From NCBI GenBank assembly GCA_019752535.1, contig JAIEMA010000045.1, forward strand, positions 1 through 64,000: a stretch of DNA of 64,000 bases, read 5' to 3'. Both the position numbers and the translations under genes were made by a program. Origin of the DNA: Bacteriovoracaceae bacterium. Its GTDB lineage: Bacteria; Bdellovibrionota; Bacteriovoracia; Bacteriovoracales; Bacteriovoracaceae. Within the stretch, counting starts at the first letter, position 1; each line of letters opens with the position of its first letter. Shown in pieces: positions 1-10,504 of this stretch. The notes under the pieces were generated by a model that did not search any database, was not told the DNA's origin, and was given only the letters and a program-made list of their open reading frames with translations.

Positions 1-878
1 TCTAGTGAGGAGACTGAGAGTAAAAGAAACAAACATATCGAAAGTGGATCCACAGGATGACCCATCCACCCCATCCCACCATAAACAAGAGCGGCTGAAT
101 AAATCACTGAGATAAAATAAAGGGGTCCAGCCTTCCAAGATCCAAACATCCATTTAAACGCAAGAATGATTATAAGTATTCCCAAAAAATTGAGCCACTG
201 AGATTCAGAGAGACCAACCATCGTGAAGTACTCTTGAGCCGATGTCCCACTTATCTGAGTTTCAAGAGGGATGAGATTTTTGACCTCACTTATAAGCTGT
301 TCGATCAACTGCGGATTAAATGTTCCATAGGTACCCGGAGGATTCAGAGGCTCTAGGCTTAAATTAAAAGCCAAATCCTTAATTTCTTTTCCTGAAATAA
401 GTTGCGACCAAGGAGTTGATTGAATGAAGGACAAATCAACCAAACGATCCGGTTCTCCCAAGCAGACATCATCAATTAATGGCATGTAAAATAGCTTATT
501 TCCCTCAATTTTCGATCTTCTAATATCAAAGAGTGAAAATGAATCTTTAACTTCAACATGGTTTTCTTTAATTTTTTGGATGGCCCTCTTGATGAGGCAG
601 AGATCAATGGCCTTAAATCCTGTCTTTGGCGCCATCACAATGAAGCCGAATGAGGATTGAGCTCCGAAATTATTTTTTAGAGACTTAAGGTCTTTGGTCG
701 ATTGAAGTTTTGAATCCAGTTGATCTTCAATGGAGACCACTTGATGCAATCGGCTTGCCCCAAAAAGAGCGATGATAAATATAAGCAAGCTGACCGAAAG
801 AATCAGCTTGGGTCTAAGCCATGAAGCCTTAATCATGCCTGTGAGCAATTTATCAAAATTCTCAAGTCTAGATCGCAC
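1..878 (-). CDS. RND/MMPL-family exporter, N-terminal part (runs off left edge)
   Basis: The reading frame stays open to the left edge, so only the N-terminal ~292 residues are present. One membrane helix near residues 20-38 is followed by a ~200-residue soluble loop and then two or more hydrophobic helices (LGILIIILAFKW; FISVIYSAALVYGG). That is the TM1, periplasmic loop, TM2-TM3 plan of hydrophobe exporters of the RND/MMPL superfamily, which move lipids or hopanoid-like molecules. I prefer the GTG at 878: it overlaps the previous stop by 11 bases, follows an AAAAAGG ribosome site, and adds a short amphipathic N-terminus (RLENFDKLLTG). An ATG at 836 is the alternative. Translational coupling to the upstream desaturase fusion suggests it exports the product of that pathway, which is inference. 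Confidence 0.7.
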   Translation of the reverse strand, partial: MRSRLENFDKLLTGMIKASWLRPKLILSVSLLIFIIALFGASRLHQVVSIEDQLDSKLQSTKDLKSLKNNFGAQSSFGFIVMAPKTGFKAIDLCLIKRAIQKIKENHVEVKDSFSLFDIRRSKIEGNKLFYMPLIDDVCLGEPDRLVDLSFIQSTPWSQLISGKEIKDLAFNLSLEPLNPPGTYGTFNPQLIEQLISEVKNLIPLETQISGTSAQEYFTMVGLSESQWLNFLGILIIILAFKWMFGSWKAGPLYFISVIYSAALVYGGMGWMGHPVDPLSICLFLLLSVSSL

Positions 879-2631
879 TCATCGCCTTTTTGATGTACTT
901 GTCCATTGAACGAACAAAAATGAGAAAGACTTTCTTTCCTGGCTCGTCAATTAGAGCATTGAGTTCAGCTTTAGCTTTCAGGGAGTAGTCTTGAACTTTA
1001 ATGTTTTCAGACTTGAGCCATTCTTGAACCTTTGAATTTCTTGCCCATGATTTATCTGGACTTTTATTCGGCCAGTGCTCTCCAAAAACTTCTACGGGTA
1101 TATTAACCAATCCCTTATCTAGATCTTCCTCGAGATCGCGATACATTGAGCACCAAGCAAAGACATCCAAGATTGAGGGCGCATCTTTTGTCCGAAGTGA
1201 GCTACCCATTGAAATCAGCAATATATCAAGTGATGTGGAGAAGGTTTTACGATGTTGAGCAATCAGTTGATCGTAATTGAGTTCAAGCTTATTAACGACT
1301 CTTGAGCGATCAAACATCATCGCTTCAATCACGACTTTTAAAATCTCTACGCCCTCAAGATAATCAGGACTGGATTTAAGTTGGGAGAGATAGACTTTAA
1401 ACAGTTGATGGAGATCTGATTGGCCCCAGTCGTTGGTTTCAAGACATTGCAAAACTTTTGCCACCACCTCAAGAGGCTCTCCTTGGCACTTTCTATCACC
1501 ATCAAGGAGGTCATCCACGACTTGAAGAGCACAAAATCCATGCCTCAGCCTTTTGGCCATTTTCCAATTTTTAAATGAGAAACTATACAAAATAAAGGCG
1601 ATAGAAGCGTATCTTTTATTTCTTAGGCTAAATTGAATAAACTGCTTAAAGCAATTCCATTCACAAGACTCTTGTTTCTCTACTCTTAAATCTTCATCAG
1701 ACGAGAGCTCATTTTTAATATCTTCTTTGAGAATGGGATTTGGAGCTTGCGCCGGTCTTGGACCTTTCCACATTTCAAAATATATTTTCAAGAAGGAAGG
1801 TTGTGGCTCATGGGGGTCAACATGCTTAGGTAAATGATTCCAAGGAAGCTTTGGATTCATGTGATGCACTTGATGGTAGTGATAATTCAAAAAAAACCAG
1901 CGCGTGATTGGATTTACTTTTAAATTCCAAGCCCCTTTGAGTATATCGCGTGGAGACCAGGCATGATCGGCGTATTGAAGCGAGCCCCAAAAGAGACCGA
2001 AGACCCAAAAACATGCCAGAGTTTGAAGAAATTTTAAATCAAGCAAAAGATAGATCGCTACTTGCAGAGCGATCACAAAGAGCAGTTCAAAACGTATACG
2101 CCATTTTTTAGGATGATCGATAAAGGGATGAAGCATGATCGCACCCGTGTGTTTAATCGCCACATTGTCCGTTTTTAGGAGTCGATAGCTCCACGGGCAA
2201 ATCAGATAAGTGAGCCATCCAATAGGAATTGTGAGCCAATAGATACCAGTCAAAATGGAATAGAATTGGGCGCGCTTCAAAAATAAATTGTCTTCTTCGT
2301 AGTACATGTCAAACATTTCATGATCTGTGCGATTTCTTAAATGATGACCGAGATGACAGACGCGCTGAAAGGTCAGTCCTGTGGGAAAAAGGGCCCCATT
2401 GATAATGCCCATAATTTCATTGAGCCACTCAGTGTGCGAATAAACTCGGTGCACACTTTCATGTAGCAGAGCAAAGATGGTATTAGCGACATAGGAGAAG
2501 AGGAATATACAACCTAAAATGACGGGAATCGATTCAGAATGAGAGACCACGTAGAGACACATTAAAAACAAAAATATAGCCGCCAAATTAATGCTGAGAT
2601 TGAGCAAATTATTTGGCTTCGCTGATTTCAT
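868..2631 (-). CDS. Fatty-acid-desaturase fused to squalene/phytoene-synthase-like domain
   Basis: 587 residues with two domains. Residues ~10-290 form a membrane di-iron desaturase/hydroxylase with several helices and the His boxes HESVH (57-61), HLGHH (93-97) and HYHQVHH (251-257). Residues ~325-587 look like a head-to-head isoprenyl diphosphate synthase: VVDDLLDGDR (371-380) matches the first aspartate-rich motif, and YRDLEEDLDKG (497-507) followed by NIPVE matches the second motif of phytoene/squalene synthases. The linker ~295-325 is charged. The N-terminal half is closely similar to the separate desaturase at 8172-9146. I know of no characterised enzyme with this architecture. Joint action on an isoprenoid substrate is inference, and the synthase half could instead be a non-catalytic relative. 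Confidence 0.82.
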   Translation of the reverse strand: MKSAKPNNLLNLSINLAAIFLFLMCLYVVSHSESIPVILGCIFLFSYVANTIFALLHESVHRVYSHTEWLNEIMGIINGALFPTGLTFQRVCHLGHHLRNRTDHEMFDMYYEEDNLFLKRAQFYSILTGIYWLTIPIGWLTYLICPWSYRLLKTDNVAIKHTGAIMLHPFIDHPKKWRIRFELLFVIALQVAIYLLLDLKFLQTLACFWVFGLFWGSLQYADHAWSPRDILKGAWNLKVNPITRWFFLNYHYHQVHHMNPKLPWNHLPKHVDPHEPQPSFLKIYFEMWKGPRPAQAPNPILKEDIKNELSSDEDLRVEKQESCEWNCFKQFIQFSLRNKRYASIAFILYSFSFKNWKMAKRLRHGFCALQVVDDLLDGDRKCQGEPLEVVAKVLQCLETNDWGQSDLHQLFKVYLSQLKSSPDYLEGVEILKVVIEAMMFDRSRVVNKLELNYDQLIAQHRKTFSTSLDILLISMGSSLRTKDAPSILDVFAWCSMYRDLEEDLDKGLVNIPVEVFGEHWPNKSPDKSWARNSKVQEWLKSENIKVQDYSLKAKAELNALIDEPGKKVFLIFVRSMDKYIKKAMSAI

Positions 2632-2667
2632 AAATCCTCAAGCTTTCATTTCACCACTATTGGCCTG

Positions 2668-2673
2668 TATAAT
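2668..2673 (+). promoter_or_regulatory. -10 box (TATAAT) 6 nt before the Rieske gene start
   Basis: A perfect TATAAT ends 6 bases before the ATG at 2680, so transcription should begin at or next to the start codon, giving a leaderless mRNA. There is no Shine-Dalgarno sequence before the ATG. The -35 region (TTCATT, 17-base spacer) is weak. Confidence 0.5.
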
Positions 2674-2679
2674 CATCGC

Positions 2680-3621
2680 ATGGCTTCTGCACAAATTCTA
2701 AAATCTTCACCCCATGGCTGGTACTACATTGGTGCTTCAAAAAGTATTCAGGCGCCAAAATTCGTCACAGTCGCTGAAGAAGAGATTGTCGTTTATAGAG
2801 GAGAAAATGGCCATTTCTACGCCGTTCAATCCCGCTGCCCACATATGGGAGCAGCGCTTAATAAAGCGAAAGTCAGAGGGAATAGTCTCCAATGCTCACT
2901 CCATCAATGGACGTACAATAACCAAGGAAAATGCACAGGAATTCCCGGCTCTACCCAAGAGAGTATTCCTGAATTTGCTAAGCTTGATGTTTACTCAATT
3001 GAAGAGAGACATGGCCATCTCTTTGTCCATTCAAAGAGAAATGAAGTCCGAACACTACCCTTCTTTCAAAATGAAAATCCTAACGACTATAGCTGCGCTC
3101 ACGTAAGACTTCTCAAAGGGAATAACCACTGGAGTGTCCCTGCGGCAAACGCCTTTGATTTAGCTCATTTTGAATATGTTCATCACAGAAAACCCACTGC
3201 CCCACCGATCATAGATAAATCGGAGCAACAAAAAAGAGGCATCAAACTTCAATATGAAATTTTAGGTAAAGAAGCGGCAGATAAATGGTTGGTAAAAAAA
3301 TACGGTAAAAATGCACAGCTAGATTACACCGTTTATGAAGGAAATCTCATCGTCGCAAAAACAACAGTAGGAAAATTCACAAATCACATGATGGTATTTA
3401 TTGAAGCGGAAGGTGATAAATGGAAAGCCTGGCTGTTTGTTTTATCAAAAACTAATAATCATTTACTCAGTAAAATTAAAAATGAAATAAGTGCATATTT
3501 CTCTTATCAATTTTTTGCCAAAGAATGCCTTGAACTTGATGGCGTGACCATTTCTCCAGAACGCCTAGGCCCAAAAGATGAGCTTTTAAGAGACTATATG
3601 AATTGGCTTACTACTCTCTAA
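2680..3621 (+). CDS. Rieske [2Fe-2S] non-heme iron oxygenase
   Basis: 313 residues. The N-terminal Rieske domain has Cys53-x-His55 and Cys72-x2-His75 (SRCPHMG; QCSLHQW). The catalytic half contains NAFDLAHFEYVHH (157-169), the D/N-x2-H-x4-H mononuclear iron site of Rieske oxygenases. The size and a single-component layout resemble oxygenases acting on ring systems such as chlorophyll derivatives, sterols and cholesterol (PaO, KshA, DAF-36 types), but no closer subgroup can be named. It is divergent from the desaturase fusion and its stop codon overlaps the stop of the PAP2 gene by 4 bases (CTAA). A reductase partner is not encoded nearby. Confidence 0.88.
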   Translation: MASAQILKSSPHGWYYIGASKSIQAPKFVTVAEEEIVVYRGENGHFYAVQSRCPHMGAALNKAKVRGNSLQCSLHQWTYNNQGKCTGIPGSTQESIPEFAKLDVYSIEERHGHLFVHSKRNEVRTLPFFQNENPNDYSCAHVRLLKGNNHWSVPAANAFDLAHFEYVHHRKPTAPPIIDKSEQQKRGIKLQYEILGKEAADKWLVKKYGKNAQLDYTVYEGNLIVAKTTVGKFTNHMMVFIEAEGDKWKAWLFVLSKTNNHLLSKIKNEISAYFSYQFFAKECLELDGVTISPERLGPKDELLRDYMNWLTTL

Positions 3622-4253
3622 GGTTTCCATCTAAAAGCTGGATCAATATCTTTCGATTGATAAATGAGATGGCAGCCAGTCGCCAAAAGAACTCCACCCA
3701 CAATATCCAAAAGATGATGCTGCCAAGTGAAAAGAACGGCTAAGCAAATTGTGGAAAACCACAAAAAGAAAAACAATTTGTAATTTGTATTCACCTTCGA
3801 CCATAGGGCCATCACAGTCAGAGCCGAATATGTGATGTGTAGCGAGGGAAGAGTATTACTGGTTTTATCCAGGGACCAAATAATTTGAAAGATAAAATCT
3901 AAAGACTCAGCATGAGAAGGACGGATAAATCCGATAGGAGCAGGAAAAAAATAAAAGATGGCGCCAGCAATGAATGTGACAATCGCTAATTTTCTTCCCA
4001 ACAGACGCATCTCACTGGGATTCAGAATAAAAACGGGAACGGCCGTCAAAAGATTGAGTGAAGTGTAAGGCAGAATCATCCAGGGGATGAGTGGTATCGT
4101 GAGCTCCCAATCGAAGTAAAACTTATAAAGTTTTTCAGCATGATCTGCATGCCAATTGGTGTAACCATAAATTGCAGAAAAAACGATTGTTAACCAAGTT
4201 CCAGTCCATAAAAACTGATACAAACTTGGCAGACTGAATTTAAACGATTTCAT
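3618..4253 (-). CDS. PAP2/AUR1-like membrane phosphatase or phosphotransferase
   Basis: 211 residues with about five to six membrane helices. The PAP2 motifs are recognisable: GFIRP (109-112), LPSLH (135-139) with the catalytic His139, and HHLLD (179-183), the His-x3-Asp of motif 3. The spacing resembles AUR1/inositol-phosphoceramide-synthase-like PAP2 proteins more than soluble acid phosphatases. In this setting it may release isoprenoid or lipid diphosphates or transfer a head group. The ATG overlaps the upstream desaturase by 14 bases, so it is the last gene of the minus-strand operon that begins at 8119. Substrate unknown. Confidence 0.75.
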   Translation of the reverse strand: MKSFKFSLPSLYQFLWTGTWLTIVFSAIYGYTNWHADHAEKLYKFYFDWELTIPLIPWMILPYTSLNLLTAVPVFILNPSEMRLLGRKLAIVTFIAGAIFYFFPAPIGFIRPSHAESLDFIFQIIWSLDKTSNTLPSLHITYSALTVMALWSKVNTNYKLFFFLWFSTICLAVLFTWQHHLLDIVGGVLLATGCHLIYQSKDIDPAFRWKP

Positions 4254-5082
4254 TTTGATGCTTATAACCAGGTATCACATAGTTTTTAAAAATAAAGCCA
4301 AAGAGACTTAATTCATTAAGCTCAGGCTTGATTCTTGGAATAACCATTTTTCTATGGATAACAGCCAACTCACTCCAATGAGCTGAGGGCTGAAGATGAT
4401 GGGCCGAATGATAACCATTGTTAAAAAGAAAAAAATTCACAATTGGTGATATAAAATTCCGACATCGATTCACACCATTATTATTCTCAAGGCCATCGTG
4501 CTGAACCAAGTTGATAACAAAGAGAAGGCAGAGAGCAATTAAGCGCGTGAGCACATAGAAAATGGCAAATCTGGCAGGAGAGATCGCCAAGAGGACAACG
4601 ACTAAGCCGAGAATTAAGCGCGACTCTATCTGGGAGCGAAGAAAAAGAGACTTAGGAATATCCGCGCCTCCCTCTCTCTTCGAAAGCTTAGGAAGTGAGA
4701 AGACATGCTTAATATAATTTAAAATTCGAAGTATTCCCCACTGATCTTTTAGCACCGTTGAGCGCATCCAATCATTGTGATCATTGTTATGAGCGTGATG
4801 ATTATAGATATGTGACGCTGCAATTGGTGCCGAAGGAATCCCCATCAAAGTGGAGAGATAAAGAAAAAAGTAGTGATTTAATTTTTTAGAAACGAAGACG
4901 GGCAAATGAGAGGCATTATGATTCATCACATGCCCCATCAAAGTGAAGGCGATATTGAGAAGCACTAAGATGACTTGCTCCCAAAGGGTTAACTTCGCGA
5001 ACATCGAAATAATAAGAAGAGCACCCGCTAGCCCAGAGGCATAGAGGGTGCTGCGATCGGCTTTATTTCTTAAAATTTTCAT
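4240..5082 (-). CDS. Membrane fatty-acid desaturase/hydroxylase-type di-iron enzyme
   Basis: 280 residues from the ATG at 5082; a TTG four codons upstream would give 284. Histidine boxes are visible as HNASH, HIYNHHAHNNDH, QHDG and GYHSAHH, set among hydrophobic helices. This is the fatty acid desaturase/CrtW/alkane-hydroxylase superfamily. It is not a close paralogue of the other two desaturases in the window, so it probably acts on a different bond or substrate. It sits 4 bases after the stop of the secreted protein gene and overlaps the PAP2 gene. Confidence 0.82.
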   Translation of the reverse strand: MKILRNKADRSTLYASGLAGALLIISMFAKLTLWEQVILVLLNIAFTLMGHVMNHNASHLPVFVSKKLNHYFFLYLSTLMGIPSAPIAASHIYNHHAHNNDHNDWMRSTVLKDQWGILRILNYIKHVFSLPKLSKREGGADIPKSLFLRSQIESRLILGLVVVLLAISPARFAIFYVLTRLIALCLLFVINLVQHDGLENNNGVNRCRNFISPIVNFFLFNNGYHSAHHLQPSAHWSELAVIHRKMVIPRIKPELNELSLFGFIFKNYVIPGYKHQNEIV

Positions 5083-5086
5083 TCTT

Positions 5087-6583
5087 CTATTCAATAATAT
5101 CGGCTAAAGGCATCGCACTCATCCAACTTCCCCAACTCTGAGAGAGAACTCTCACACTTGCAGGAATATCTTTACCCGTTTTCACATCTGGGAAAATTTG
5201 CTTATACGTTTGCGCATCCCAATTATTTGCTCTTCCGATTTCATAGTTGCGATACTTCACCGTTTGAACTTTGCCAGAAGCATCTTTTAAACTCATTTCT
5301 TTCCACTCGCTGCCTTCGACAAATGCAGTAGGAAGAAACGCTTTTAAATCTTGTGGAGGATTTTTATAGAAGGCTGGAAGATCAACCTTCACCATCTCAC
5401 CGGTGATCGCACTTCTGATTTGAGCAGGTCCCTCAACGATGGCTAACATATTTTCAATCGAGAGATCACTGCCACGCTCATAAGCTCGGGCAAATGAAGT
5501 ATCAAACAGGAAAGCCTCAGTCAGTGGACGATCTTCTCGCTTGATTTGATCCCACACCATCGCTGTTAATCGAACGCTCTCTTGAAGATGATGGAAAGAC
5601 TGAGCCATCCATTCTTGTCCGTCTGGCAAAAGGGTTCCGTAATTCTTGTAAGTCGATTTTCTTAGAACATTTGTTCTCTTTGATGATGGGGCTCCATCAA
5701 CTTCTGAAAGAAATCCGTCGACTCCATAGAGTTTTCCCATATCTTGAAACAGCTTCATTGAATTCTCAGATGAATAGGCTCTTTGATAAGAGATTTGAGC
5801 AAGAGAGCTATGAATTGACGCTAGAGAGCTAATACGCTCGACTTCACCGACTAAGCGAAAGCGATCGACATCATCGACAAAAGACGCTTTACCAAAGAAC
5901 AATTTATTATCCCAAACGATTGTCTTCCCATTGAGATCAATGGCCTGAATTCTCTTCGCTGCCTTAAGCATCGAGCTTCTTACAGGGCCAGAGAAGTGAG
6001 ATACAAGATCTGATTCATTCTTGAATGTTTCGGCTACTTTCCCCTCTCTAACGTAAGGAGTTGTAATATATTCAAAACCAGCACTCCACTGCTCAGTAGG
6101 AAGGAAGATCTTCATACTCGATTGAGTATTCTTAAGCATCGTCAGCACATAGCTATGGGTGATTTTCGCTTTGCTAAAAACAGGAGCACTTCTCCAGGCA
6201 ATCCCTCTTAATTCACGAAGAGGAAGGACATGGGCGACAAAGAACTTTTGGTCTTCATCCTTAAATGAGCCATAGTTCTGCTCAAGATCGTTAAGAAAGG
6301 CTTCAATCTCATCGGCCGATTTCAATTTCAAGAACTGATCACGGGTTTTTCTAAAGGCGTCACTCATCATCGACTCATCGCCAGAGTTTTGATTACTAGG
6401 ATTTCTCTTCTGGTTAGAAAACTTCGCCTTTCCTTCTTTCACTTTCGACAATGTTGTCCAAGTGTAGGCGTTTTCCTCAGCTTTATAAGGAGCTTTCTTT
6501 GAAACTTCTTGGCCATACGGAGAGGGTTTGGCGAACCCAAGCGTTGGAACCAATAGTGCTGTGATTAAAAGATACTTTTTCAA
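5087..6583 (-). CDS. Secreted protein of unknown family in the desaturase operon
   Basis: 498 residues with a clear signal peptide (KKYLLITALLVPTLGFA). The start is TTG: it lies 5 bases after a strong GAGGAGG ribosome site and directly follows the TAA of the upstream gene, while no usable ATG exists nearby. The mature protein is soluble, rich in Ser/Ala/Lys, with no membrane helix and no motif I recognise. Being embedded among lipid-modifying enzymes, it could be a periplasmic enzyme or a lipid-binding or heme-binding factor. It contains several conserved-looking aromatic stretches (SFHHLQESVRL; NYEIGRANNWDAQTY) that could help find homologues. Function not assigned. Confidence 0.8.
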   Translation of the reverse strand: MKKYLLITALLVPTLGFAKPSPYGQEVSKKAPYKAEENAYTWTTLSKVKEGKAKFSNQKRNPSNQNSGDESMMSDAFRKTRDQFLKLKSADEIEAFLNDLEQNYGSFKDEDQKFFVAHVLPLRELRGIAWRSAPVFSKAKITHSYVLTMLKNTQSSMKIFLPTEQWSAGFEYITTPYVREGKVAETFKNESDLVSHFSGPVRSSMLKAAKRIQAIDLNGKTIVWDNKLFFGKASFVDDVDRFRLVGEVERISSLASIHSSLAQISYQRAYSSENSMKLFQDMGKLYGVDGFLSEVDGAPSSKRTNVLRKSTYKNYGTLLPDGQEWMAQSFHHLQESVRLTAMVWDQIKREDRPLTEAFLFDTSFARAYERGSDLSIENMLAIVEGPAQIRSAITGEMVKVDLPAFYKNPPQDLKAFLPTAFVEGSEWKEMSLKDASGKVQTVKYRNYEIGRANNWDAQTYKQIFPDVKTGKDIPASVRVLSQSWGSWMSAMPLADIIE

Positions 6584-7243
6584 TTAGGCCTCCTCATGAG
6601 TCATGATAAAGATTGCGTCTTGTTTTATTCCAGATTCATTAAACATTTGATTATTTTTAAAATGATAAAAAGGAGGCAAAGCCGAAGTGGCTTTAAGCGT
6701 TTCTCCCTCACCTAACATGGCCCCAGGCGCGATCGCACTCATGGTGCCGACAATCGCTCGATTTCCAATTTTCGGTTCTCCAAAAATTAAGCTCAATTTT
6801 AAAGTCTTTGGATCTTTCGTTAGAAGATGAGAAGTCATCTTCGCGCCATAACCCAACACCGCTTGATCTCCAATCTCCACAAATGGGCGATCAGCAATCA
6901 GAACTTTGGGAGACCAAAAGACAAACTTTCCAACCTTGGCGCCCCAAAGACGCAGCCAAAAACTGTAGAGCCCAGGCACCAGGCGCAAAAGCTCTTCAAG
7001 AAAACTAAAGCGCATGAAAGGGACCTGAAGTTGTGTTGTAATCCACCAAGCGTAGGCACTCTTAGAAGGCACAGGACTATTATTTTCTGGCTTCCCTAAA
7101 ATGAGCAATGTCACACGAGCGAGAAAGGGAGGCATAAGATAAAGTGCCACCACCGCGACCCATAGAGGATAAGCGTAACCAAGCCATGCGATCGTAACCG
7201 CCAAGGCAAACCCAATATAGTTAATGGCAATCCAAGTAATCAT
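6584..7243 (-). CDS. Membrane-anchored hexapeptide-repeat (left-handed beta-helix) acyltransferase-like protein
   Basis: 219 residues. Two hydrophobic helices occupy residues ~1-50. From ~100 on, the sequence shows hexapeptide-type turns (GAKVGKFVFW, VEIGDQAVLGYGAKM, IGNRAIVGTMSAIAPGAML), as in trimeric LbetaH acyltransferases. The catalytic His of classical acetyltransferases is not obvious. Start and stop abut both neighbours (TAG/ATG upstream, TAA/TTG downstream), so it is translated with the AurF-like gene and the secreted protein. A role in acylating the pathway product is inferred from context. Confidence 0.68.
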   Translation of the reverse strand: MITWIAINYIGFALAVTIAWLGYAYPLWVAVVALYLMPPFLARVTLLILGKPENNSPVPSKSAYAWWITTQLQVPFMRFSFLEELLRLVPGLYSFWLRLWGAKVGKFVFWSPKVLIADRPFVEIGDQAVLGYGAKMTSHLLTKDPKTLKLSLIFGEPKIGNRAIVGTMSAIAPGAMLGEGETLKATSALPPFYHFKNNQMFNESGIKQDAIFIMTHEEA

Positions 7244-8119
7244 CTACCAGCCTAAAAAAGCAAAATGCTTAAAGTAAGAATCAGATTCTTTGTGAATCAA
7301 TTTAGAGAACACTTTTCTCGTCGCTGGGAAGGCCGGATGAATCCAGAGCACCCAAGAGATAAATTTTGAAAAAAGATAAAATTTCTTGAATGTATTTTCT
7401 TTATAAAACACGCGACTCATCAACTTCCAAGCCGGACTAATCAGACACACTTGAGTCATCAGGACACACATCAAGGTGGCCACATGAAGTCTCACTCTTT
7501 GAATGAGTGTCATCTTTTGAATTTCATCTCTTAGTAATTCAAAATCTTTGGCGATGTGGCTCGCTTCATCAATCGCGTGATGTTTTACAAGTGAAGCCCA
7601 TCGATTTTCAATTTTTGAATTTTTGCTTAAAGCAACATGATACTGAACGGCATAAATCTCAGACTTGGCCCCTGGTAGAAACACCGCCAGTGGTTCCCAA
7701 CGATAAAGCCAGGCACAAAATTTTCTGCTCCAAGATTTTTGATGGAGAAAAAATGAAGTCTCGGGCCAGCAGCCCTTTGATTCTTCTGAAAGAAATTTTC
7801 TAAACTCATCAATGTGAAGAATTTCATCACTGATAAACTCTTTCATTCCCTGATCAAGTTTTAAGCCACGCTTCTCAAGCACTTTTGAAGAGAGCAGCAA
7901 TCCTTGCTCAAGATGAATGATCACTTCTGCATTGAGTTGCACAAAGCCCCACGCGAGCTCGCGTTTTTGCTCATCACTTAAAGAATCCCAAACAGAAGTG
8001 TTGAAGAAAGGAGTTTGATTTTCATCAAATTCCAGATTCACCCAACTCTTTTGCTTGTAGGCTTCCCAGTGAATGGGATAAGCATTTGTTACCGATTGAA
8101 GATTAGTTGCAGCAGTCAT
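7244..8119 (-). CDS. AurF-like (p-aminobenzoate N-oxygenase family) diiron protein
   Basis: 291 residues from the ATG at 8119; a TTG at 8140 is possible but has no better ribosome site. It is helical, with ligand-type motifs in ferritin-like order: EVIIHLEQ, ISDEILHIDEF, an E/H pair in KSEIYAVQYH, and KHHAIDEASHIAKD. This matches the AurF/diiron oxygenase family (PF11583-like), whose members oxidise arylamines or other small substrates. It is the first gene of the minus operon and divergent from the desaturase at 8172 with only 52 bases between them, so both may share control. Specific substrate unknown. Confidence 0.72.
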   Translation of the reverse strand: MTAATNLQSVTNAYPIHWEAYKQKSWVNLEFDENQTPFFNTSVWDSLSDEQKRELAWGFVQLNAEVIIHLEQGLLLSSKVLEKRGLKLDQGMKEFISDEILHIDEFRKFLSEESKGCWPETSFFLHQKSWSRKFCAWLYRWEPLAVFLPGAKSEIYAVQYHVALSKNSKIENRWASLVKHHAIDEASHIAKDFELLRDEIQKMTLIQRVRLHVATLMCVLMTQVCLISPAWKLMSRVFYKENTFKKFYLFSKFISWVLWIHPAFPATRKVFSKLIHKESDSYFKHFAFLGW

Positions 8120-8171
8120 CCCAAAAAGTATAATTTCCAAAGGTTCAGACTACAAGCAAGCAAGGACGACC

Positions 8172-9146
8172 ATGGCGCGCGGAGTATATTTAGGAAAGGA
8201 AATCACGATCCCCGGAACGCTAAATATATTCATAGCTTTATCCGCCTATTCTCTTGCGATCCTTTGTTTATATTTTGCGGCCACGTCCAACACCCTTTGG
8301 ACATACTTGATCAGCACACTCTGTTTTTCCTATATTGGCAATACTCTCTTCTCTCTGCTGCATGAAAGTGTCCACCGGGTCTTCCATCCCAACAAAACCT
8401 TAAACGATTTGTTTGGCGTTTTTTCAGCGGCTTTTTTTCCCACTGGTTTCACTCTCCAGCGTGCCTTTCATCTGGGTCATCATCGACGCAACAGAACTGA
8501 TGTTGAAATGTTCGATATGTATTACCCAAGCGATAGTAAACTTCTTAAAAGACTTCAGATGTACACCATCCTCTTGGGCTTTTACTGGACGTCGGCCCCT
8601 ATTGCAGGACTGGCCTACCTCTTCGCTCCTTGGCTTTTAAACATTCCTCTTCTGCGCTCTCCTGATCCACGCATTCAAAGAATGAGTGCCGATGCCATGC
8701 TCTCTGGCATTGAGAAAGTGAATCCTCTTAAAGCGCGAGCGGAACTTCTCTTCACTCTTCTCTTTCATCTCGCCCTTGGCTATTTCATGGGATTAAGTTT
8801 CTGGAAATGGCTCGGATGCTACTGGGCCTTTGCAATCAATTGGGGCTCTCTTCAATACGCTGATCATGCCTGGACCAAGAGAGATATTCGCCACGGGGCT
8901 TGGAATTTAAAAGTGAACCCGATCGTTCATTGGATTTTTCTTCATTATCATCATCACAAATCACACCATGAAAACCCTCAGGTCCCTTGGATTCATCTGC
9001 ATAAATTCGTTGATTTCAAGGAAGAGCGTCCCACTCACTTTTCTATATGGCTTAAGATGTGGAAAGGCCCAACGTTAACGCAAGAATCTTCACCAAAGGC
9101 CCTCGATAAGTCTTTTGAGGACGCATTGTACGAAAGCCCTCAATAA
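8172..9146 (+). CDS. Membrane fatty-acid desaturase, paralogue of the fusion's N-terminal domain
   Basis: 324 residues with His boxes HESVH, HLGHH and HYHHHKSHH, plus shared blocks such as RNRTD-EMFDMYY, WGSLQYADHAW and GAWNLKVNP that are nearly identical to the fused desaturase at 868-2631. It lacks the synthase domain, ending in a ~25-residue polar tail. The ATG is preceded by AAGGA at good spacing. The two copies bracket the cluster in opposite orientation, indicating an old duplication. Probably introduces a double bond or hydroxyl into a lipid chain; regiochemistry cannot be told. Confidence 0.88.
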   Translation: MARGVYLGKEITIPGTLNIFIALSAYSLAILCLYFAATSNTLWTYLISTLCFSYIGNTLFSLLHESVHRVFHPNKTLNDLFGVFSAAFFPTGFTLQRAFHLGHHRRNRTDVEMFDMYYPSDSKLLKRLQMYTILLGFYWTSAPIAGLAYLFAPWLLNIPLLRSPDPRIQRMSADAMLSGIEKVNPLKARAELLFTLLFHLALGYFMGLSFWKWLGCYWAFAINWGSLQYADHAWTKRDIRHGAWNLKVNPIVHWIFLHYHHHKSHHENPQVPWIHLHKFVDFKEERPTHFSIWLKMWKGPTLTQESSPKALDKSFEDALYESPQ

Positions 9147-9208: not shown

Positions 9209-10504
9209 ATGAAAACACTATTGTCACTATGCTTAGTTTTATTCAGCTTTTCTCTTTTTGCCCAAGATAAATACTACGGGGCCAAATCCACAGAAGCTAT
9301 TTTACGCTTTGAAGGAAAAATTGAATTAACTCCGGGTCTCGCGGCAGCTCAAAAAAAAGAAGCCATCGATTCTCAAGTTCAACATTTAATCGGCTATTTT
9401 CAATCTGAAAGTTTCCTAGACGCTTTTCGATTCCCAGGTGTCTTAGGACAAAAATATAAAATTATCTTGAAAGGCCAAAAAATTAAAGGTGACATGGTTG
9501 AAGTGAGCTATCACTTCGAAGGAAAAACCAATTTCCATAGAAGTGTATTTAGAAATGGCCGCAAAACTCAAATCCCACTCAGCCTTCCCTACAACATCGA
9601 TAAAATTTATGAACTCGGAGTCGTGCGTGGAAAGAACTTATGCTCCGATGAACACTATAACTCTGAAGGTGACTTCTTCTATTTCTGGGATCCCGATAAG
9701 GATGAGTGTCCTCTTAAAGGAAACACAACAGATGTCTTGAGAATAAATGGCACACTAGATGAACTAGAAAATACCACTTCTACTTACCCTGAATACGATC
9801 GCCTCTATCAAAAAGATAAAATTAAAGTCGCCGTCTTTATCGGCTACATCGACGGGCCCACCAACCGTGACTCAGGTGCCTACTCTTATAGAGGTCTTAA
9901 AGAGAAATTCACAGATCTTGGATTTGAACTTAAAGAAGAGAAAAAATTATTTCGCCATAGCGGCCAAAGAGTGACTCAAGGAGTGAACTATCTTGCCACT
10001 TTTTCAGGCATGACAAAAACGGCTTTGGGCACAAACAGCGAAATTGAAATTCAATTGATGCTCGCTGAAACAGAAATGGATAACCGCGATTCCACTTTTC
10101 ATAAATATTTAATTGAGGCTTATGAGAACGCTGACATCATCGCTTATGATGGACATTCTGGTCTGGGTGGAAACCTTGATCTGAACTCACTTCCGACAGT
10201 CAATTTTAAGCGCAACTATCAGATCATCTTCTTTAATGGTTGCAGCTCTTATCCTTACTACAATCAAAACTATTTTGCGGCCAAACCAGGCGGCAGTAAA
10301 AATCTTGATATCATCACGGCGGGTCTTCCGACTCTGACATCGACATCAGAAGACAACATGATGGCTTTCCTGACTCCTTTCCTCAAAGGCTATCTCTCAA
10401 GCTGGCAAACCCTGATGAATCGCCTTGAAGCGTCAAATGGTGAAGAGACGACTTATTTGATGGGTGTGAACGGCGATGAGGACAATCAATTCCGTCCGCG
10501 CTGA
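9209..10504 (+). CDS. Secreted caspase/gingipain-like (clan CD-like) protein
   Basis: 431 residues with signal peptide (LLSLCLVLFSFSLFAQ). The C-terminal half has a Rossmann-like beginning (KIKVAVFIGYID) and then a plausible clan CD His/Cys dyad: ADIIAYDGHSG with His316, and QIIFFNGCSS with Cys345. Each follows a hydrophobic strand, as in gingipain and caspase folds, and the 29-residue spacing is gingipain-like. Residues ~20-190 are an unassigned N-terminal domain. This suggests a periplasmic or exported cysteine peptidase, or an inactive relative. No Shine-Dalgarno precedes the ATG. Confidence 0.6.
   Translation: MKTLLSLCLVLFSFSLFAQDKYYGAKSTEAILRFEGKIELTPGLAAAQKKEAIDSQVQHLIGYFQSESFLDAFRFPGVLGQKYKIILKGQKIKGDMVEVSYHFEGKTNFHRSVFRNGRKTQIPLSLPYNIDKIYELGVVRGKNLCSDEHYNSEGDFFYFWDPDKDECPLKGNTTDVLRINGTLDELENTTSTYPEYDRLYQKDKIKVAVFIGYIDGPTNRDSGAYSYRGLKEKFTDLGFELKEEKKLFRHSGQRVTQGVNYLATFSGMTKTALGTNSEIEIQLMLAETEMDNRDSTFHKYLIEAYENADIIAYDGHSGLGGNLDLNSLPTVNFKRNYQIIFFNGCSSYPYYNQNYFAAKPGGSKNLDIITAGLPTLTSTSEDNMMAFLTPFLKGYLSSWQTLMNRLEASNGEETTYLMGVNGDEDNQFRPR

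Follow-up and report, generated by a model that had tools for sequence, protein, structure and literature searches.

The window analysed here is a stretch of 64,000 nucleotides from a Bacteriovoracaceae bacterium (assembly GCA_019752535.1, contig JAIEMA010000045.1, here C18), and its bases 1-9146 hold nine tightly packed open reading frames (ORFs) whose families were supported by Pfam and NCBIfam profile searches. We call these genes module B, as a second gene set, module A, was found at positions 70002-78898 of contig C11 of the same genome (Table 1). A sequence-only reading of the window had proposed that the nine genes, of named families, build and export one modified, possibly isoprenoid-derived lipid. 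All the ORFs were found and the profile matches agree with the families claimed, being weaker for the hexapeptide transferase and the MMPL exporter and lacking for the secreted protein Sec498. The Pfam cut-offs were 29.7 bits for FA_desaturase, 29.6 for AurF, 27 for PAP2_3, 27 for Hexapep, 20.5 for MMPL and 26 for SQS_PSY. Window base 1 is the first base of its contig (the assembly has 3.49 Mb in 76 contigs), so the MMPL gene is cut by the contig end and for no biological cause; a full-length orthologue (stretch L016) reaches 26.6 bits against PF03176 and has a weak HpnN match. From AurF to PAP2 the minus-strand genes follow each other with intergenic gaps of 0, 0, -8 and -14 bp, which makes the single translational unit proposed earlier plausible for this run, but the fusion gene DesPSY and MMPL, which overlap by 11 bp, lie outside it and are separated from it by the plus-strand Rieske gene. 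DesC and AurF are divergent with a gap of 31 bp. The G+C content is 41.3% at 1-9146 against 41.7% in the remaining window, and therefore a recent import of the locus is not indicated.

Table 1. Genes of module B (window coordinates) and of module A (coordinates on contig C11), with the support for each assignment
Feature	Position	Strand	Support
MMPL/RND (HAE3-type) exporter, N-terminal 292 aa	1..878	-	TIGR00921, 34 bits
Desaturase-PSY fusion (DesPSY): FA_desaturase (aa ~1-310) and SQS/PSY-like domain (aa ~325-587)	868..2631	-	PF00487, 76 bits
SQS/PSY-like domain of the fusion	871..1659	-	Motifs DDLLDGDR and RDLEEDLDKGLVNIP; alignment
Rieske-type oxygenase	2680..3621	+	PF00355, 74.7 bits
PAP2_3/AUR1-like membrane enzyme	3618..4253	-	PF14378, 34.5 bits; PSLH and HHLLD motifs by eye
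DesB, membrane FA_desaturase	4240..5094	-	PF00487, 88 bits; histidine boxes
Sec498, secreted 498-aa protein, marker of the cluster family	5087..6583	-	N-terminal signal sequence by eye
Left-handed beta-helix (hexapeptide) transferase	6584..7243	-	PF00132, 20.2 bits (under cut-off); TIGR02353, 42 bits
AurF-like diiron oxygenase	7244..8140	-	PF11583, 37.8 bits; start TTG 8140 or ATG 8119
DesC, membrane FA_desaturase	8172..9146	+	PF00487, 67.7 bits
FA_hydroxylase (OlsE-like)	C11 70002-71021
Membrane protein	C11 71076-71705
GH3-type enzyme	C11 71665-73203
Rieske oxygenase (VanA-type)	C11 73191-74246
c7, GNAT-like/unknown	C11 74237-75361
c5, fusion of RnfD-like membrane domain, FG-GAP repeats and UnbV_ASPIC	C11 75349-78159 (L108 13350-16160)
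c4, GNAT-like/unknown	C11 78131-78898

The Rieske protein of module B has both motifs of its class (CxH...CxxH and D-xx-H-xxxx-H), and its cluster residues C53, H55, C72 and H75 as well as the iron ligands D160, H163 and H168 are invariant across seven relatives. The AurF-like protein scores above the family cut-off and shows the diiron Glu/His pattern, the ligands E72/E78, E106xxH109, E161, H188, E192 and H195 being invariant in an alignment of three sequences. Histidine boxes are present in the desaturases, including the desaturase part of the fusion. Judged by these residues, the enzymes of the locus look functional. DesC and the N-terminal half of the fusion are paralogues with 48% identity, in agreement with the tree, and DesC has a 78% identical orthologue in the genome G003. 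Orthologues of the hexapeptide protein were found in the stretches L017, L055 and L106.

Two other genomes of this genus (G002, 62% identity; G003, 59%) have whole-length orthologues of the fusion, and because of these the fusion is not an assembly error. Among 369 genomes of the phylum Bdellovibrionota, the squalene/phytoene-synthase-like (PSY) domain is fused in three and a separate gene in three others (stretches L055/L024, L081 and L082). In the Bacteriovoracaceae genome UBA6261 (G062) the separate gene codes for 274 aa and overlaps MMPL, and in G149 and G080 it lies directly behind a desaturase of the fusion's type. The domain of the window scores only 11.6 bits against Pfam SQS_PSY and thus misses the curated cut-off, while that of the best relative matches the family at E=4e-5; a sequence search of PDB gave no convincing match. 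Its AlphaFold2 (AF2) model has the all-alpha class I terpene synthase fold, with a predicted local distance difference test score (pLDDT) of 87 and a predicted template modelling (TM) score of 0.85. Foldseek matched this model across the class I terpene synthase superfamily, where terpene cyclases rank first by E-value, and HpnC (4hd1, 0.69/0.72) and CrtM (0.66/0.65) rank at the top by TM-score. Both Asp motifs (DDxLDGDR and RDLxxD) are kept in the alignment and in the separate genes also, the second being variable around its core (RDLKVD in G003, RDLEVD in G080). Going by the model and the motifs, the fused domain would work like a squalene/phytoene synthase and may turn over prenyl diphosphates, though it is not filed as a member of SQS_PSY.

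These results bear on a product that would be isoprenoid from the outset. The PSY domain would couple two prenyl diphosphates to a squalene- or presqualene-like chain, from which PAP2 may strip the diphosphate; the fused and other desaturases, the Rieske protein and AurF would oxidise the chain and MMPL would export it like a hopanoid or sterol. Such a route fits the intact pair of Asp motifs and the nearness of the model to HpnC and CrtM, and polyprenyl synthases, present in all six genomes with PSY, could provide the substrate. (A polyprenyl synthase that adjoins an FAD enzyme on contig C21 was set aside as unconnected to the cluster.) The association of unfused PSY with the same desaturase type or with MMPL also agrees with it, as do matches, all below cut-offs, of the Rieske protein to the 4beta-methylsterol monooxygenase SdmA, of MMPL to HpnN and of the desaturases to CrtR/CrtW. 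Yet PSY is found in only 6 of the 369 genomes as against 82 for Sec498, and the GH3 and GNAT-like partners described below are left unaccounted for. Squalene-hopene cyclase (PF13243), by which a hopanoid cluster would be recognised, is absent from all the six PSY genomes. CrtI, which a carotenoid cluster should contain, exceeds its cut-off in G080 alone, its best match in the genome under study having 44 bits against a cut-off of 238, and the family searches of this genome gave no canonical PSY or SQS elsewhere. We consider this route rather unlikely. The 'isoprenoid-derived' part of the sequence-only reading is accordingly weak, and as PSY is an accessory of six genomes it can therefore hold at most for this branch. 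The hopanoid cluster (HpnC/D/E, squalene-hopene cyclase, HpnN) resembles the present system in the HpnC-like predicted fold, in the HAE3/HpnN-like MMPL and in the radical-SAM proteins of other members, which are relatives of HpnJ/HpnR; it differs in having the cyclase, and here PSY is fused to a desaturase and absent from most members. It may be noted that at C1:58559-62642 of G080 the CrtI gene lies near a polyprenyl synthase, so that this relative with PSY may have a carotenoid locus.

Module B is orthologous in G002, G003 and UBA6261. Strong AurF relatives occur in 11 and GH3 in 128 of the phylum genomes. Protein clustering over 40 stretches, each of about 20 kb or less, gave as recurrent partners of Sec498 the MMPL, GH3, VanA-type Rieske, c4/c7 (GNAT-like or unknown) and c5 (RnfD/FG-GAP/UnbV_ASPIC) proteins, and also PAP2, several desaturase families, AurF and B12 radical-SAM proteins, the last being related to lipid-acting families. 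As these stretches were chosen by Sec498, PSY or desaturase matches, a genome-wide distance test is more independent. Among the matches listed, Sec498 lies at most 15 kb from a GH3 gene in 28 of 83 placings, where we estimate a chance of about 1% per placing for a 3.5 Mb genome, and for 10 of the 11 strong AurF relatives Sec498 or GH3 is no more than 13 kb away; the lists used comprise the stronger or listed matches from 66 and 122 genomes and are slightly incomplete. Co-occurrence by genome gave Fisher p=2e-12 for Sec498 with GH3 and, with 10 of the 11 strong-AurF genomes also having Sec498, p=1.7e-7 for AurF, both uncorrected for shared ancestry. The co-localisation of AurF-like and GH3 genes with the Sec498 family is thus far above chance, and scattered homologues, which would have spoken against a conserved functional set, were not what we found. 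It would still be conceivable that ordinary membrane-lipid housekeeping genes for desaturation, a phosphatase and an exporter stand here as unrelated neighbours with no common pathway, since every family is common by itself and both G001 and most family members lack module B. This is contradicted by the co-localisation across families and genera, by the overlapping reading frames, by the gene fusion and by the common Sec498, and we regard it as highly improbable. The B12 radical-SAM proteins of other members suggest that the cluster family has a common scaffold with variable tailoring.

Module A supplies several of these partners, and where relatives of the module B genes recur together in Bdellovibrionota its gene set is usually present too. 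Its GH3 protein belongs to the family (109.8 bits against 23.6) and keeps three nucleotide motifs (TSGSTFNRK, ATEG and GIWRYQLGD), and the neighbouring FA_hydroxylase matches OlsE. Throughout the phylum, the RnfD/FG-GAP/UnbV_ASPIC fusion keeps its place next to GH3 and Rieske genes. In UBA6261 modules A and B are contiguous, and in G002 a third piece (C313; L106 870-4294) with FA_hydroxylase, desaturase, hexapeptide protein and AurF genes lies apart from the main locus; the gene system is modular. The lipid theme expected for the families fits, and the genes of the window are a conserved set as proposed, but the locus is only a part of the system, with module A lying on C11. Because module A is found in the same genome and adjoins module B in UBA6261, the likely product shifts towards an aminolipid.

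The explanation we favour, with a confidence somewhat short of even, is that modules A and B are the two halves of a split biosynthetic cluster, whose product would be an aminolipid-like molecule that is heavily oxidised and exported. In module A, the GH3 enzyme would use ATP to activate a fatty acid and would link it as an amide to an amine or amino acid, and the same module would supply the GNAT-like proteins, the VanA-type Rieske protein, the OlsE-like hydroxylase and the RnfD/UnbV-type membrane redox protein. Module B would then carry out the tailoring: three membrane diiron desaturases/hydroxylases, the Rieske protein and AurF would put in double bonds, hydroxyls or an N-oxide, while the hexapeptide protein may add an acyl group, the PAP2/AUR1-like enzyme may remove or transfer a phosphate group, and the MMPL pump with Sec498 would move the product outward. 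In this branch, the desaturase-fused PSY domain would make or attach a prenyl unit that the desaturase then modifies. What the data show is which genes are present, that they are conserved and co-localised, that metal and nucleotide motifs are intact, and the predicted PSY fold; we infer the substrates, the order of the steps, the export and the sharing of one product by the two modules. Among the closest known systems is the OlsH/OlsI ornithine-lipid pathway of planctomycetes (PMC12493201). Its N-acyl ornithine is formed by OlsH, a GH3-like enzyme of bacteria that uses a free fatty acid, ATP and Mg. The amide-forming GH3-like step and the OlsE-type hydroxylase of module A are alike, whereas OlsI and OlsG were not noticed here and the present system adds desaturases, Rieske, AurF, PAP2, MMPL and Sec498.

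Several results weigh against this explanation. The GH3 of C11 has 27 bits to the OlsH model, for which the cut-off is 620, and so falls short at the equivalog level, and the sequence does not tell which amino acid or acyl chain would be the substrate. For c4 and c7 the match to GNAT is weak, the best E-values being 0.04 and 4e-4. In the genome under study the two modules are on different contigs, and G001, of the same genus, has module A without matches to Sec498 or PSY. Sec498 has no Pfam match and no convincing one in a PDB sequence search, and its AF2 model is of low confidence (pLDDT 58) with no structural match.

The c5 fusion of module A, together with the desaturases, also raises the case of a specialised metabolite in place of a membrane lipid, such as a compound or signal resembling a polyyne or polyene, which would be amidated and secreted and may have a role in competition or predation. 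UnbU and UnbV are found in enediyne cassettes, and here the RnfD-like and UnbV_ASPIC domains are joined as one protein. The tailoring enzymes vary strongly between genomes, and a related cluster lies on a mobilizable Citrobacter plasmid, as accessory metabolite genes do. However, UnbV/FG-GAP proteins are common outside enediyne clusters, the MMPL resembles the HAE3 class, which has ties to lipids, and neither a polyketide synthase (PKS), enediyne type included, nor a non-ribosomal peptide synthetase (NRPS) nor a dedicated acyl carrier protein was noticed in the loci read; also, unlike UnbU/UnbV, the module A protein accompanies GH3 and Rieske genes. The AurF-like protein shares the Pfam family and diiron ligand set of AurF/CmlI-type N-oxygenases, but it adjoins a hexapeptide transferase and desaturases, with no PKS/NRPS carrier noticed nearby. 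A specialised metabolite is unlikely on this balance.

Outside the phylum, the mobilizable IncF plasmid of Citrobacter portucalensis, from a gull, has the related cluster (L104, NZ_CP134684.1 51417-63512), in which genes for a c6-type desaturase, PAP2, five radical-SAM proteins, c7, GH3 and c4 form a single run. It was the sole plasmid copy found, close DNA relatives being absent from the E. coli and plasmid collections, and Sec498 was not found on plasmids. In Burkholderia arboris (NZ_CP101525.1; L105 12001-14426) a GH3 gene comes immediately after that of a distant desaturase; the replicon is nearly unannotated in the collection used. Next to module B, a secreted 431-aa protein without a Pfam match is encoded at window 9209-10504, and a 67% identical copy adjoins the cluster in G002 along with an RDD protein. 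Its motifs YDGHSGLGG and FFNGCSSYP, seen by eye, suggest a His/Cys caspase-like peptidase.

No published description of the cluster family was found in the open-access literature, where searches on Bdellovibrio with these families, on UnbU/UnbV and on GH3 with desaturases returned only the OlsH work as relevant. The family is apparently widespread, modular and undescribed. For the Bdellovibrionota, known for their predatory bacteria, it would imply a new class of lipid or metabolite, and it offers a defined gene set for testing the product class. A new hybrid lipid class of this phylum, with a GH3-amidated acyl part, a prenyl part made by the fusion, export by MMPL and Sec498 and spread by plasmid to Enterobacteriaceae, is a bolder form that we think distinctly improbable. 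The plasmid copy in Citrobacter means that related clusters are able to cross between phyla. Through the desaturase-prenyl synthase fusion a new enzyme pairing becomes directly accessible to study, and Sec498 and the neighbouring MMPL are a candidate pair for lipid export at the envelope.

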